Below are positions 15,921 to 20,792 of a stretch of 64,000 nucleotides of DNA, one piece after another. The notes beneath the pieces were generated by a model. The model did not search any database. It was not told the DNA's origin and saw nothing but the letters and a program-made list of their open reading frames with translations. A program made the position numbers and the translations under genes. Each line of letters starts with the position of its first letter. The first letter of the stretch is position 1. Source of the stretch: Streptomyces sp. RerS4 (lineage in GTDB: Bacteria > Actinomycetota > Actinomycetes > Streptomycetales > Streptomycetaceae); NCBI RefSeq assembly GCF_023515955.1, contig NZ_CP097322.1, forward strand, positions 4,202,501 through 4,266,500. Reading direction: 5' to 3'.

Positions 15921-16886
15921 CTATTGGGGCCGCTCCCCGGCCTCGTCCACCACACCGCGCCCGACGAAGGCCACGGAGGTCACCGGCTCGCCGGCCCTCG
16001 CCCAGTGGCTGTCCTTGAGGGCCACGGTGCGCTCGCCGAGCAGCCGCAGGGTGGCCGCGTCGAAGATCCACTCGGTGCGTTCGCCCCGGTCGACGCGGGC
16101 GACCGCGACGCCGCTCCGTCCGGCGGCGTCCGTCGCCTCGGGGACGAAGACGACCCCGGGGATGCGGGCGGCGGCCCGGTAGAGGGCGGCGCTCACGCCG
16201 GGCGGGGCGTTCACGGTCCGCAGCAGGTCGCCGATGGCCACGAAGGCGTGCTGATCGGTGCTGAGGGTGGAGCCCGAGTCGGGGCCGTGGTTGACGCGTA
16301 CGTCTGCGTAGATGAGCTTCAGGAGCTTGTCGGGGTCGGTGGGCAGGGCTTCGAGGAAGCGGTAGGTGGGCCCGTTGATGCTCGGCTCGGCGTTGCCCTT
16401 GCTGCTCGTGGGCTCCCTGGACGTTCCGTCGGCGGTGCGGACGAGCGTGCCGACCGACCCGTTCACGGAGACCCAGCGCTCGGCGGACTCGTCGGTCCGG
16501 AACGCCTCCATGCCCCCGTCCTTCGTCTCGGACAGGGTGGTGGAGTGGCCGACGGTCTTCGTGTAGAGGAACTGGTCGTCGCGAACGGTCGCGGCGGGCT
16601 GCTCCTGCGCCGTGAGCGCCACGCGGTCCAGCAGCTGAACCGCCGCCGGCTCGGGCGGCCGTACGCCGGACCCGCCGCCCCCGGTGCCGAGGCTGACGGC
16701 CAGCGCCACGGCGCAGGTCGCGACCCCGGCGGCGAGGACGAGGCCGAAGGGCCGCCGGCCGGCCCTGCGCGCGCCCACTACCGCCTCGCTCAACAGGTGC
16801 TCCCGAAGGCGCCGTTCCCCGGCGAAGGGCAGGTCCGCGTCGGCGACGCCGGGCAGGCGCCGGAGGGTCTCGTGGGCGTCGTTCAA
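15921..16886 (-). CDS. CU044_5270-family membrane-anchored protein, partner of the ECF sigma factor
   Basis: 321 residues. The N-terminal 55 residues are cytosolic, followed by one membrane helix (PFGLVLAAGVATCAVALAVSL, around residues 54-74), then a large exported domain. This is the usual architecture of the CU044_5270 family, which is typically encoded with ECF-type sigma factors in Streptomyces and is assumed to act as sensor or anti-sigma partner. The start is a TTG at 16886, overlapping the sigma-factor stop, with GGAAGG 7-8 nt upstream; no better start is available. The coupling supports a two-gene regulatory unit. The biochemical role is inferred from context only. Confidence 0.8.
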   Translation of the reverse strand: MNDAHETLRRLPGVADADLPFAGERRLREHLLSEAVVGARRAGRRPFGLVLAAGVATCAVALAVSLGTGGGGSGVRPPEPAAVQLLDRVALTAQEQPAATVRDDQFLYTKTVGHSTTLSETKDGGMEAFRTDESAERWVSVNGSVGTLVRTADGTSREPTSSKGNAEPSINGPTYRFLEALPTDPDKLLKLIYADVRVNHGPDSGSTLSTDQHAFVAIGDLLRTVNAPPGVSAALYRAAARIPGVVFVPEATDAAGRSGVAVARVDRGERTEWIFDAATLRLLGERTVALKDSHWARAGEPVTSVAFVGRGVVDEAGERPQ

Positions 16887-17395
16887 TGGGTTCCTTCCCG
16901 GGCCGTGAGCTTGTGCAGGCGGGCGCGGGCCCGCGAGAGACGCGAACGTACGGTGCCCACGGCGACCCCGCACGCCTGGGCGACTTCCTCGTGGCTGAGG
17001 CCCGACCACACGGACAGCAGCAGCACCTCGCGGTCGGCCCGGCGCAGCCGATTCAGCGCCGCGAGAGCGGCGGTGGCCCGATCGGAGTCGGCGATACGGG
17101 ACACGACGGCGTCCGCGAGGTCCGGAACGGCGTCGGGAGGTGGCAGGCGGGCCATGGCGGCACGGTGGCGGCGGGCCGTCCGGCGGGTGTTGCGGATGAC
17201 GTTCGTCGCGACCCCGAACAGCCATGCCCGCTGGTTGGCGACCTGGTCGAGCGAGTCGCGCAGCCGCCAGGCTTCGAGGAAGGTGAGGGAGACGATGTCC
17301 TCGGCCCCGGCCCGGTCGGCGGTCATGCGGACGGCATGCGCGTACACGGCTCGGGCGTGTGCGTCGTACATGTCCGCGAACAGTTGGTGGTCCAC
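16883..17395 (-). CDS. RNA polymerase ECF-type sigma factor
   Basis: 170 residues, typical length for group IV sigma factors. Seen: region 2 with YAHAVRMTADRAGAEDIVSLTFLEAWR and QRAWLFGVATNVIRN, then region 4 with REVLLLSVWSGLSHEEVAQACGVAVGTVRSRLSRARARL, a standard sigma-70 region 4 helix-turn-helix. It is directly upstream of, and overlaps, the CU044_5270-family membrane protein. Target promoters are unknown; autoregulation is usual for such pairs. ATG at 17395. Confidence 0.92.
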   Translation of the reverse strand: MDHQLFADMYDAHARAVYAHAVRMTADRAGAEDIVSLTFLEAWRLRDSLDQVANQRAWLFGVATNVIRNTRRTARRHRAAMARLPPPDAVPDLADAVVSRIADSDRATAALAALNRLRRADREVLLLSVWSGLSHEEVAQACGVAVGTVRSRLSRARARLHKLTAREGTH

Positions 17396-17975: not shown

Positions 17976-18701
17976 TCACGGCGCCGGTGGGGTGGCCGGC
18001 TTGGTGTGGAGGATGTCGCGGGCCTGTTCGGCGGCGCGGGTGATGCTTTCGGAGACGAAGTCGACGAAGCGGGCGATGTTCTCCAGGCGGGTCGCGGCCG
18101 GGGTGCCGGGGCCGAGGACGCCGACGCCCTCGCGCGCCGTCTCGCTGAGCTGGGCGGTGGCGCGGGCGCTGGCCATCATCGACTGGTACCAGACGTCGTC
18201 GTCCACGACGTACCGCTCGCGGCGGCGGTCGTCGCGTTCCCGGCGGACGAGGCCCTGGTTCTCCAGGAACGCGATCGCCTTCGAGATGGACGCCGGGCTG
18301 ACCTGGAGGCGTTGGACGAGTTCGGACGCGGTGAGGCTGCCCGCGTCCGTGAGGTAGAGGCAGGTCATCACGCGGGCCATCATCCTGGGCGTGCCCGCGT
18401 GGATGAGGACATCCGTGAACGACTCCTCGTACGCGCGCATCGCCTCGGCGTCGCGGCCGTGGGCCTGCGGGGGCGCCTCCGACCCCCGGGGCGCGGCCGG
18501 CCTGCGCTGGGCGCGGCGTTCGGTGGCGCGGTGGGCGACGTCGGCGCGGTAGGTGGCGGGGCCGCCGTTGCGCATCACCTCGCGCGTGATCGTCGAGGTG
18601 GGGCGTTCGAGGCGCCGGGCGATCTCGGCGTAGGCGAGGCCGTCGGCCAGCCCCAGAGCGATCTGGCGGCGTTCGGGCTGGGTGAGCCGGCCTCCGGGCA
18701 T
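17976..18701 (-). CDS. GbsR/MarR-type transcriptional regulator with extra N-terminal helix-turn-helix
   Basis: 241 residues with two DNA-binding parts. Residues 1-50 (GGRLTQPERRQIALGLADGL, YAEIARRLERPTSTITREVMRNGG) form a helix-turn-helix like those of IS30-type transposases. Residues about 85-230 form a MarR/GbsR winged helix (LTASELVQRLQVSPASISKAIAFLENQGLVRRERDDRRRERYVV). It is divergent from the DUF4097 and serine-hydrolase genes. A GCAAC site overlaps its own -35 box, so autoregulation is likely. Ligand unknown. ATG at 18701 follows AAGGAG. Confidence 0.88.
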   Translation of the reverse strand: MPGGRLTQPERRQIALGLADGLAYAEIARRLERPTSTITREVMRNGGPATYRADVAHRATERRAQRRPAAPRGSEAPPQAHGRDAEAMRAYEESFTDVLIHAGTPRMMARVMTCLYLTDAGSLTASELVQRLQVSPASISKAIAFLENQGLVRRERDDRRRERYVVDDDVWYQSMMASARATAQLSETAREGVGVLGPGTPAATRLENIARFVDFVSESITRAAEQARDILHTKPATPPAP

Positions 18702-18733
18702 GCGCGGTCTCCTTCGTGGTGGGTGGCGTCTCC

Positions 18734-18763
18734 ACTATAGCGTTCAGTGTCAGCTCATTGCAA
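18734..18763 (-). promoter_or_regulatory. Sigma-70-type promoter of the GbsR/MarR regulator
   Basis: On the minus strand TTGCAA (-35, 18758-18763), an 18-bp spacer and TATAGT (-10, 18734-18739) give a near-consensus vegetative promoter about 33 bp before the ATG. One GCAAC element (18760-18764) overlaps the -35 box. Confidence 0.65.
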
Positions 18764-18880
18764 CGTGACGGGTGTGGGATGTTGCGTTTGAGGGCAGGGC
18801 GGTGCAACGAAATTGGGGCGGTGAGGTGCGGAGATGGGGATTCTGCGCAACGTGCATGTTGCCGAGATGGTGAATGCAAC
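18760..18880. promoter_or_regulatory. Operator array of GCAAC/GTTGC elements in the divergent intergenic region
   Basis: GCAAC occurs at 18760, 18804, 18847 and 18876, and the inverse GTTGC at 18781 and 18858. The pair 18847-18862 is a 16-bp near-perfect palindrome (GCAAC-N6-GTTGC, 14 of 16 symmetric). Neighbouring copies are 44 and 43 bp apart. Sites overlap both divergent promoters. The binding protein is inferred to be the adjacent regulator. Confidence 0.6.
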
Positions 18881-18887
18881 GTAGCTT
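18859..18887 (+). promoter_or_regulatory. Promoter of the DUF4097 - serine hydrolase operon
   Basis: TTGCCG (-35, 18859-18864), 17-bp spacer, TAGCTT (-10, 18882-18887). The -35 lies on the GTTGC arm of the 16-bp palindrome, and another GCAAC sits just upstream of the -10, so repression by steric blocking is plausible. Confidence 0.55.
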
Positions 18888-18947
18888 TTCGTTCATCGGA
18901 AAGCGGCGGGCCGACAGGGCGCGCGCCGCGAGATGAAGGAGCACACC

Positions 18948-19619
18948 GTGCAGAAGTTCGCCACCACCGCCCCGATCGCCGCCGTCCTCGACATCCCCGC
19001 CGGCCGGATCCGTCTCATCGCCGCCGACCGGGCCGACGCCACCGTCGAGGTCCTGCCCGCCGACGCCTCCAAGAACCGCGACGTCAAGGCGGCCCAGGAG
19101 GTCACCGTCGACTACACCGACGGCGTCCTGCGCGTCGAGGCCGCCGAGGCCAAGAGCCGCGTCCTGGGCCACCCCGGATCCGTCGAGGTCACCGTCCAGC
19201 TCCCCGCCGGGTCCGACGTCCGGGCCAAGGCCGCCGACGCCGAACTGCGCGGCGTCGGACGCCTCGGCGACGTCACCTTCGAGGCCGCCCGAGCCGCCGT
19301 CAAGCTCGACGAGACCGCGGGCGCCCACCTCACCCTCCAGGCCGGCGACATCACCCTCGGCCGCCTCGGCGGCCCCGCCGAGATCCGCACGCAGAAGGGC
19401 GACCTCCGCGTCGACGAGGCCGTACGCGGCGCCGTCGTCCTGCGCACCGAATCCGGCGACATCACCATCGGCGCCGCCCGCGGCGTCTCCGCCACCCTCG
19501 ACGCCGGCACCTCCTACGGCCGCATCCACAACGCACTCCGGAACGCCGAAGGCGCCGACGCCGGCCTCACCCTCCACGCCACCACCGCCTACGGCGACAT
19601 CACCGCCCGCAGCAACTGA
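18948..19619 (+). CDS. DUF4097 family beta-strand repeat protein
   Basis: 223 residues from GTG 18948, chosen because GAAGGAG lies 6 nt upstream; an ATG at 18933 would add five residues but has no ribosome site. The sequence is a series of short beta strands with Gly/Asp turns (for example GDITLGRLGGPAEIRTQKGDLRV, ESGDITIGAARG, AYGDITARSN), the DUF4097 right-handed beta-helix-like adhesin fold. No signal peptide or membrane anchor, so it is probably cytoplasmic. Downstream of, and divergent from, the MarR-type regulator, and followed after 48 bp by a serine hydrolase. Function unknown. Confidence 0.85.
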   Translation: MQKFATTAPIAAVLDIPAGRIRLIAADRADATVEVLPADASKNRDVKAAQEVTVDYTDGVLRVEAAEAKSRVLGHPGSVEVTVQLPAGSDVRAKAADAELRGVGRLGDVTFEAARAAVKLDETAGAHLTLQAGDITLGRLGGPAEIRTQKGDLRVDEAVRGAVVLRTESGDITIGAARGVSATLDAGTSYGRIHNALRNAEGADAGLTLHATTAYGDITARSN

Positions 19620-19667: not shown

Positions 19668-20792
19668 ATGACCGACATCCACACCGCCGACCTGACCACC
19701 ACCGGGCCGGACCGCCCGGAACTGCACCAGGCCGTCCAGGCGTTCGTCGACGCCGGCTTCGCCGGGATCCAGCTGCGCGTGCACGACGAGCGGGGCGAGT
19801 GGGTCGGCAGCGCCGGGGTGCGCGAGCTGGGCGGGAGCGACAGGCCGTCGACGGACGGACGGTTCTGGGCGGGCAGCGTCGTCAAGACCTTCACCGCGAC
19901 CGCCGTGCTGCAACTGGTGGCCGAGGAACGGCTGGCACTCGACGCCCCGGTGGCCGACCACCTGCCCGAACTGGCCGGGCTGGACCCCCGCGTCACGGTG
20001 CGGATGCTGCTCCAACACACCAGCGGGCTGTTCAACTACACCGGCGAGTACTTCGAAGACGGAACGATCGTGCCCGGCATCCCCGCCACCGGCAAGGAGT
20101 GGGTCGACAACCGGCTGCGCACCTACGAGCCGCAGGAACTCATACGGCTCGCGCTGTCCAAGCCGGCGCGGTTCGAGCCGGGGACGGGCTTCGGCTACTC
20201 CAACACCAACTACACGCTGGCCGCGCTGCTGATCGAGGCGGTCGCCGGCCGCTCGTACGGCGAGGAGATGCGGCGGCGCGTCCTGGAGCCGCTCGGGCTA
20301 CGGGACACCGTGCTCGCCGGCGCCGTCACGGACCTCCCCGAGCCGCACGCCCACGGCTACTACCGCTACCAGGACGGCGAAGAGTGGAAGGTGGTCGACG
20401 TCTCCCGCCAGAACCTCACCATGCTCCTCGGCGCCGGCGGCCTCATCTCCACCACCCGCGACCTCCACACATTCTTCGCCGCGCTGAACTCCGGCACGCT
20501 CCTGCCGCCCGCGCTCCTCGCCGAGATGCGCAAGCCGTACGGGGAGCTCGGCTACGGCCTCGGCCTGTTCGTCCAGGACCTCGGCCCGGACGCCGGCACC
20601 GTCTACCACCACAACGGCGGCGCCCCCGGCGGCTACGGAGCCCTCATGTACAGCACCCCCGACGGCAGCAGGACCCTCACCGCCGGCATGACCACCGGTG
20701 ACGCCGACATCAACCCGGCGGAAGTCTTCCCCCAGGCCTTGGCCAGGCTCGTCGAGGACGTCTTCGGGGCCTCAGCCCGCCGCGCGCGGTAG
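19668..20792 (+). CDS. Serine hydrolase of the beta-lactamase/penicillin-binding superfamily
   Basis: 374 residues, class C/esterase-type fold. Seen: the SxxK motif SVVK (Ser70, Lys73), the YxN motif in FGYSNTNY, and HNGG near residue 322 in place of the KTG triad. These make an active acyl-serine enzyme likely. There is no signal peptide, unlike secreted D,D-peptidases, so a cytoplasmic esterase or peptidase role is more likely than cell-wall work. ATG with AAAGGAG upstream. Its 3' end overlaps the convergent CocE gene by 21 bp. Substrate unknown. Confidence 0.88.
   Translation: MTDIHTADLTTTGPDRPELHQAVQAFVDAGFAGIQLRVHDERGEWVGSAGVRELGGSDRPSTDGRFWAGSVVKTFTATAVLQLVAEERLALDAPVADHLPELAGLDPRVTVRMLLQHTSGLFNYTGEYFEDGTIVPGIPATGKEWVDNRLRTYEPQELIRLALSKPARFEPGTGFGYSNTNYTLAALLIEAVAGRSYGEEMRRRVLEPLGLRDTVLAGAVTDLPEPHAHGYYRYQDGEEWKVVDVSRQNLTMLLGAGGLISTTRDLHTFFAALNSGTLLPPALLAEMRKPYGELGYGLGLFVQDLGPDAGTVYHHNGGAPGGYGALMYSTPDGSRTLTAGMTTGDADINPAEVFPQALARLVEDVFGASARRAR

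Follow-up and report, generated by a model that had tools for sequence, protein, structure and literature searches.

The intergenic region between a MarR-type regulator gene and a divergent DUF4097 gene in Streptomyces sp. RerS4 carries an array of eight GCAAC-type words, which is probably the operator of the adjacent regulator. The HTH_38 domain of this protein would read GCAAC, dimers linked through the MarR part would cooperatively repress both promoters, and a ligand would relieve repression. The window, that is, the whole stretch of DNA analysed, comprises 64,000 nt (GCF_023515955.1, NZ_CP097322.1, positions 4,202,501-4,266,500, forward strand). The computed basis consists of the words, their conservation and near-fixed geometry, their co-occurrence with the regulator, the loss of the word in relatives lacking HTH_38, the match with IS30 ends, and orphan arrays.

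The regulator, its neighbours and the word array

The features of the locus are as follows, with conservation given as counts of aligned upstream regions of orthologs.

17976-18701, minus strand: regulator gene (ORF, 241 aa), N-terminal HTH_38 plus MarR-type winged helix
18567-18689, minus: HTH_38 coding stretch (residues 5-45, Pfam), near-invariant among 31 orthologs
18739-18734, minus: regulator promoter -10 TATAGT (promoter scan); 18734, 18738 and 18739 invariant in 106/106
18737-18747, minus: word s0 (degenerate), GTGAACGCTAT type, GCGTTCA on the plus strand at 18740-18746; overlaps the regulator -10
18758-18765, plus: word s1, TTGCAACG; overlaps the regulator -35; GCAA invariant in 106/106
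18781-18789, minus: word s2, GTTGC[GA]TTA type (TAACGCAAC on the minus strand); TTGC and TT invariant in 106/106
18801-18813, plus: word s3, TTGCAACGATTT type (GTGCAACGAAATT in the window); GC in 106/106, AA in 105/105
18822-18834, minus: word s4 (degenerate), TGACCTGCA type at 18822-18829, TGACCTGCA...AT in relatives, GCAGG on the minus strand; T 103, G 105 and C 94 of 105
18847-18851, plus: word s5, GCAAC; GC in 104/104, second A in 104/104
18858-18864, minus: word s6, GTTGC, merged with the target -35 TTGCCG (18859-18864, plus); T 104, T 103 and G 104 of 104
18872-18881, plus: word s7, GAA[CT]GCAACG, next to the target -10; CAAC invariant in 104/104, flanking Gs in 102/104
18882-18887, plus: DUF4097 promoter -10 TAGCTT; TA invariant in 104/104
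18948-19619, plus: DUF4097 (toastrack) gene (Pfam DUF4097, 6.6e-10)
19668-20792, plus: serine hydrolase (beta-lactamase fold) gene, downstream of DUF4097 (Pfam Beta-lactamase, 5.9e-59)

The N-terminus of the regulator matched Pfam HTH_38 (9.5e-14, residues 5-45), a helix-turn-helix of the IS30-transposase type, and its winged-helix domain matched MarR (6.7e-10, residues 111-160) and MarR_2 (6.7e-11), both above the cut-off. The AlphaFold2 model displayed a MarR fold with long terminal helices; block means of pLDDT were 84-97 over residues 81-230 and 64-77 over residues 1-60, and residues 65-78 stayed below 50. Foldseek placed the model closest to 4nb5 (E 9.9e-7), 1ku9 (4.0e-6) and 5jbr (3.0e-5), and a sequence search of solved structures returned three matches, in the MarR region (E 0.0014-0.0098). 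The MarR recognition helix is conserved as SPASxSKAxxFL. No DDE catalytic domain was found in the regulator by Pfam or NCBIfam scans up to E 0.01, and its IS630 and PHROG transposase matches were confined to the HTH.

The DUF4097 gene likely starts at GTG 18948, with AAGGAG upstream, the alternative opening of the ORF being ATG 18933. Of the ortholog loci having 500 bp or more of upstream sequence, 103/103 (window included) contained a DUF4097 relative, whereas a serine hydrolase relative was present in just 7 of the 65 whose upstream sequence reached 2300 bp; DUF4097 is therefore the conserved partner of the regulator. A gene for an ECF-type sigma factor (Pfam Sigma70_r2 and r4_2) also lies near the regulator, at 16883-17395 on the minus strand.

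A preliminary description of this DNA had reported four GCAAC and two GTTGC elements within 121 bp, and we found them again with that total span, GCAAC starting at 18760, 18804, 18847 and 18876 and GTTGC at 18781 and 18858. Its spacings of 43-44 bp were correct (44 and 43 bp), a spacing in helical turns was supported, and its near-perfect 16-bp palindrome, GCAACGTGCATGTTGC at 18847-18862, pairs at 7/8 positions. The words do lie over both facing promoters, as it had proposed: s0 and s1 on the -10 and -35 of the regulator, s6 on the DUF4097 -35 and s7 abutting its -10. They form part of a larger design of eight words (s0-s7, of which s0 and s4 are degenerate), alternating in orientation over about 150 bp and mostly 21-23 bp apart. 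The 18822-18834 block, GCGTTCA at 18740-18746, the alternating orientation and the arrays located away from the regulator go beyond the earlier account. From s0 to s7, centre distances in the window are 23, 21, 23, 21, 22, 11 and 18 bp; the minus-strand words s0, s2 and s4 follow each other in 44-bp steps, and the plus-strand words s1, s3 and s5 in steps of 44 and 43 bp. The form [CT]GCAAC is seen in words s1, s2, s3, s5 and s7 of the array in the window.

The regulator promoter, TTGCAA (18763-18758, minus), N18, TATAGT, was the sole promoter-like match of the scan in 18600-19050. The DUF4097 promoter, TTGCCG (18859-18864), N17, TAGCTT (18882-18887), was recognised by eye; the scan did not report it.

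Within the window the word cluster is confined to this one intergenic array, any stretch of equal length in the rest of the 64 kb holding at most two word starts (84 words in 64 kb). Six or more such words were obtained in 2 of 5000 dinucleotide shuffles of the 231-bp intergenic region; when any 5-mer plus its complement occurring six times was counted, to allow for looking elsewhere, this rose to 160 of 1000. The evidence of this single sequence is therefore only suggestive, and it is the conservation in relatives that makes the array real. Genome-wide, GCAAC-N6-GTTGC occurred at 4 places versus 2 for a control pattern, which is uninformative alone (one of the 4 is the second-replicon array described below), and ACGCAACRTAGC with one mismatch occurred at 11 places versus 21 for the control, a weak result.

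Conservation and distribution of the array

Orthologs were searched in related genomes and in named contigs, from which the best 80 loci were taken; among these, relatives with 76-81% identity occurred in Actinomadura, Kribbella, Longispora, Cellulomonas, Micromonospora and Saccharothrix. All 110 upstream regions (window counted twice) contained at least three words within 250 bp. Before alignment, five loci were left out: L112 (match from residue 8), L002 (duplicate of the window) and L083, L090 and L092 (short upstream regions). In the resulting 106 rows, of which two stop before the right part, word cores were near-invariant and spacers drifted, which bears out the conservation of the elements in orthologous loci. 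Mean information was 1.77 bits at word and target -10 positions versus 0.69 bits elsewhere, with word boundaries set after the alignment had been seen, and 35 columns within 18733-18903 were invariant.

The geometry was nearly fixed, five of the seven inter-word distances being the same in at least 113 of 121 arrays. The distance s0-s1 was 23 bp in 113 arrays, s3-s4 was 21 bp in 119, s4-s5 was 22 bp and s5-s6 was 11 bp in all 121, and s6-s7 was 18 bp in 119; s1-s2 measured 21 bp in 77 and 20 bp in 38, and s2-s3 measured 23 bp in 101 and 24 bp in 18. The anchored stretch spanned 168-172 bp in 99 of 109 loci; because the other 10 do not have both anchors, selection has in part acted on s7 and on the left end in this set of 99 rows, unlike in the 106-row figures. 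Array and locus counts are not phylogenetically independent. Against the operator reading, s4 is degenerate, s0 overlaps the -10, and the constraint on s6 is chiefly that of a -35 box, the C that follows TTG being kept in only 71/104 rows and the full GTTGC in 57/99 arrays. Since s6 is kept as TTG and not as GTTGC, the 16-bp palindrome is partly a promoter box. At the [CT] position of s7, C was found in 50 and T in 43 of 104 rows.

A sequence-only model of the array matched in 66 of 150 genomes. All but one of the 67 genomes whose regulator match reached E<1e-40 were among them (66/67), and of the remaining 83, 32 of which had a weaker regulator match only, none was. Within the same genus, the array was present in 58/58 genomes that reached this cut-off and in 0/33 of the rest. 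The exception, G097, has a partial regulator match (starting at residue 16), and the model did not detect an array there. The array thus tracks the regulator to which it belongs.

Arrays also occur at a distance from the gene, 36 having no intact regulator gene directly beside them. From the array list, 35 orphan candidates away from regulator positions were picked by eye and fetched, three of them at or near a contig end (L238, L253 and L261); one had an intact regulator about 1.6 kb to the right and two had adjoining remnants. The right-hand neighbour was DUF4097 in 17/35, and other right-hand genes coded for a cytochrome P450 (L264, Pfam) or a serine hydrolase (L268 by Pfam, L271 by tblastn); a cytochrome P450 gene also stands beside a paralogous regulator (L115, Pfam). 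Two orphan arrays, L257 and L258, precede the gene of a small protein that is apparently membrane-embedded; the label GtrA-like was considered for it and dropped, L257 having no Pfam match at 1e-5.

Twenty-two orphans were compared with the arrays beside a regulator, excluding L259 (degenerate), L260 (regulator remnant), L261 (left end missing) and L262-L272 (paralog-type). Base 18734, the last of the regulator -10, was kept in 99/99 arrays with the regulator versus 2/22 orphans, and base 18738 in 99/99 versus 16/22. Each position of GCGTTCA was kept in 21/22 orphans, which were found with the whole-array model, a bias equal for GCGTTCA and the neighbouring -10; s1 and s2 also stay. Because orphans lose the regulator -10 and keep the left words, these words seem to serve the right-hand (target) promoter about 130 bp away.

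The 242-kb second contig of the same assembly, a second replicon, holds a further copy of DUF4097 and the operator (L207, G000:C2:186000-193000), 97% identical over 900 bp, from which the regulator is absent. It is flanked by a cupin gene (Pfam) and by a gene for an apparent prolyl-oligopeptidase-type peptidase. In this copy, 1 of 66 word positions was changed, compared with 23 substitutions in 105 other positions (14 end-gap columns uncounted); one of the 23 falls on base 18734 of the regulator -10. A P450-type array also lies at C1:6288764. In another genome (G024:C33; L241 and L242), three arrays lie within about 6.4 kb beside one regulator, which suggests a local duplication of array plus DUF4097.

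The GCAAC word, IS30 ends and the two DNA-binding domains

MarR relatives lacking HTH_38 share the related MarR part (33-43% identity) and the divergent layout, here beside an ABC transporter (ABC ATPase by Pfam in L139), but differ in having a single conserved palindrome, TTCACAAATTT[GC]TGAA, almost without GCAAC words. After 40 loci had been collapsed to 37 distinct ones, 37/37 came within two mismatches of TTCACAAATTTGTGAA, and GCAAC or GTTGC within 200 bp was seen in only 2/37. This word swap is a correlation, since these relatives differ in the MarR part too. They were present (L136-L145, L273-L302) in 93 of the 121 searched genomes of the genus. Conversely, their palindrome was sought in 107 upstream regions of the array type and reached 5-8 mismatches at best, within the range of shuffles (4-9). 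At the window locus, no single palindromic operator was found; there are eight alternating words instead.

Paralogous regulators (42-49% identity) have kept the array, which there precedes genes for a P450, an ABC transporter or a serine hydrolase. In the 25 scored of 30 paralog-type arrays, s1-s2 was shorter by one helical turn (10 in place of 21) in 15; the other 10 had no such pair or a distance of 11, 14 or 22. Word s5 was missing in 25/25 and the left arm of the palindrome was found in 0/25, and 14/25 carried, at a distance of exactly 17 bp from the -10, a TTG hexamer that was in most cases TTGACG; the other 11 did not. A MarR half-site GTGAA at both array ends, as in the palindrome of the HTH_38-less relatives, is suggestive only; against it stand the left end of the paralogs' arrays, which is GAAGGCAA, and differences between the MarR recognition helices.

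At IS30 loci in Actinomycetota, wherever an end pair was detected, the terminal repeats finish inward in GCAAC. The inward pair TTC-N9-13-[CT]GCAAC[AG] was present in 15 of 22 distinct IS30 elements, the other 7 having no paired ends under that pattern, and two control words scored 0/22 each. In a blind count GCAACA was the 6-mer most often common to both ends (9/22; next 5), whereas among 5-mers GCAAC did no better than tie with GGTCG and CGGCG (12/22). The ends of E. coli IS30A contain CAACGCAACA and CAATGCAACA, with the same C/T choice as in word s7. On the protein side, 16-25 of the first 47 residues of the regulator were identical in 17 IS30 transposase N-termini (one broken frame at 12; 4/22 elements unscored), and S36, R40, E41, R44 and N45 were invariant in 43 members including paralogs. 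Regulator and IS30-family transposase thus have a similar recognition helix (STITREVMRNGG in the regulator, STISREIRRNG type in the transposase) and [CT]GCAAC in common, and differ in that the regulator has no detected catalytic domain and its words stand in a promoter, not at element ends.

The preliminary description had suggested that the extra IS30-like HTH might read direct repeats and the MarR part the palindrome. A role of the HTH in reading GCAAC is supported by the word and helix common with IS30 and by the HTH_38-less relatives, and that half of the idea is kept; the division of labour is not supported, the words alternating instead of forming direct repeats plus a palindrome. Reading of the 16-bp palindrome by the MarR part was not borne out: its right arm is the target -35, with the full GTTGC in little more than half of the arrays, and its left arm is lost in paralogs. 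As two independent lines, IS30 ends and HTH_38-less relatives, agree, the most likely reader of GCAAC is HTH_38 rather than the MarR domain. The genome of the window itself also holds an IS30 transposase gene (L155, G000:C1:4826192), and there transposase and regulator could compete for the word.

Proposed control, rival explanations and significance

Each GCAAC word would be read by an HTH_38 domain, as presumably by the transposase at IS30 ends. MarR-joined dimers may hold oppositely oriented words separated by about two turns, and several dimers would line up cooperatively along the array of some 150 bp. Cover on the regulator -10/-35 (s0, s1) and on the target -35 and spacer (s6, s7) would repress both promoters, a small ligand of the MarR domain would relieve this, and the same regulator would act in trans on array copies elsewhere. 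Binding, cooperativity, repression rather than activation, and the ligand are all what we infer from the computed evidence. We also consider it possible, at slightly under even weight, that a family of actinobacterial regulators originated when an IS30 end-reader and a MarR sensor became joined and kept the word for the operator. The eight-word ladder on two strands, with its period of about 44 bp, would then resemble a transposition complex frozen as a gene switch, and it would serve targets at separate places, with or without a regulator gene (DUF4097, cytochrome P450, serine hydrolase, ABC transporter).

The main rival concerns the sign of control. The array might mainly activate the target promoter, repression being limited to the regulator's own promoter: like activator sites, words are placed upstream of the -35, upstream words are kept in orphans where the target promoter alone remains, and retention of such distant words fits activation as well as cooperative repression. 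We hold this to be unlikely, however, with s6 on the -35 and s7 in the spacer against the -10, where a bound protein is expected to block polymerase. It is less likely still that the MarR winged helix reads GCAAC half-sites and HTH_38 has another purpose, e.g., protein contact. Although the MarR recognition helix is conserved and inverted GCAAC pairs could suit a dimer, the HTH_38-less relatives use an unrelated palindrome, word and helix are common to IS30 transposases, and 21-23 bp between half-sites is a wide spacing for a single MarR dimer.

Use of the array by a different DNA-binding protein, such as a global regulator or nucleoid protein, is very improbable in view of its co-occurrence with the regulator (66/67 versus 0/83, and 58/58 versus 0/33 within the genus). 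High conservation of the intergenic region would also suit an RNA element (leader or small RNA), but Rfam gave no match in 18500-19100 up to E 1 and, if the promoters are right, both transcripts begin outside the array, so that we give this reading hardly any weight. Least credible, and already contradicted, is a decayed remnant of IS30-type insertions: the words do match IS30 ends, yet the geometry is near-fixed in 121 arrays, conservation extends across genera, words are kept while spacers change, and there is no transposase among the proteins scanned at the locus (regulator, DUF4097, serine hydrolase and others).

The locus, with HTH_38 as the preferred reader, is of the general type of a MarR-family autoregulated divergon. 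With such divergons, of which CouR is an example, it shares the divergent target, the operator over both promoters, the MarR-type domain and a presumed ligand pocket; those divergons have one or two palindromes, whereas here there are an extra IS30-type HTH and an alternating eight-word array of about 150 bp, and, unlike in those systems, the array occurs also away from the regulator. Compared with the known MarR divergon, we rate as new the transposase-type reader together with its transposon-end word. Eukaryotic transcription factors derived from domesticated transposases, FHY3/FAR1 and ZBED6, are likewise reported to reuse a transposase DNA-binding part for gene control; the present case is bacterial, fused to a MarR sensor and retains the transposon-end word. 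PMC9866976 has DUF4097 and MarR in a gene-cluster table, and the passages of PMC9333248 that concern IS30 binding give 26-bp repeats and no recognition word. Among the matches listed, the openly licensed PMC literature held no description of this regulator type.

If the proposal is true, a bacterium has taken over the DNA-reading domain of a transposase together with its DNA word as a transcription switch. The orphan arrays would supply a regulon from the outset and, through natural variation, separate operator bases from promoter bases; it is also predicted that resident IS30 elements and promoters of the host engage in cross-talk. To our knowledge, the IS30 recognition code has not been solved structurally, and it would become testable in a small regulator.
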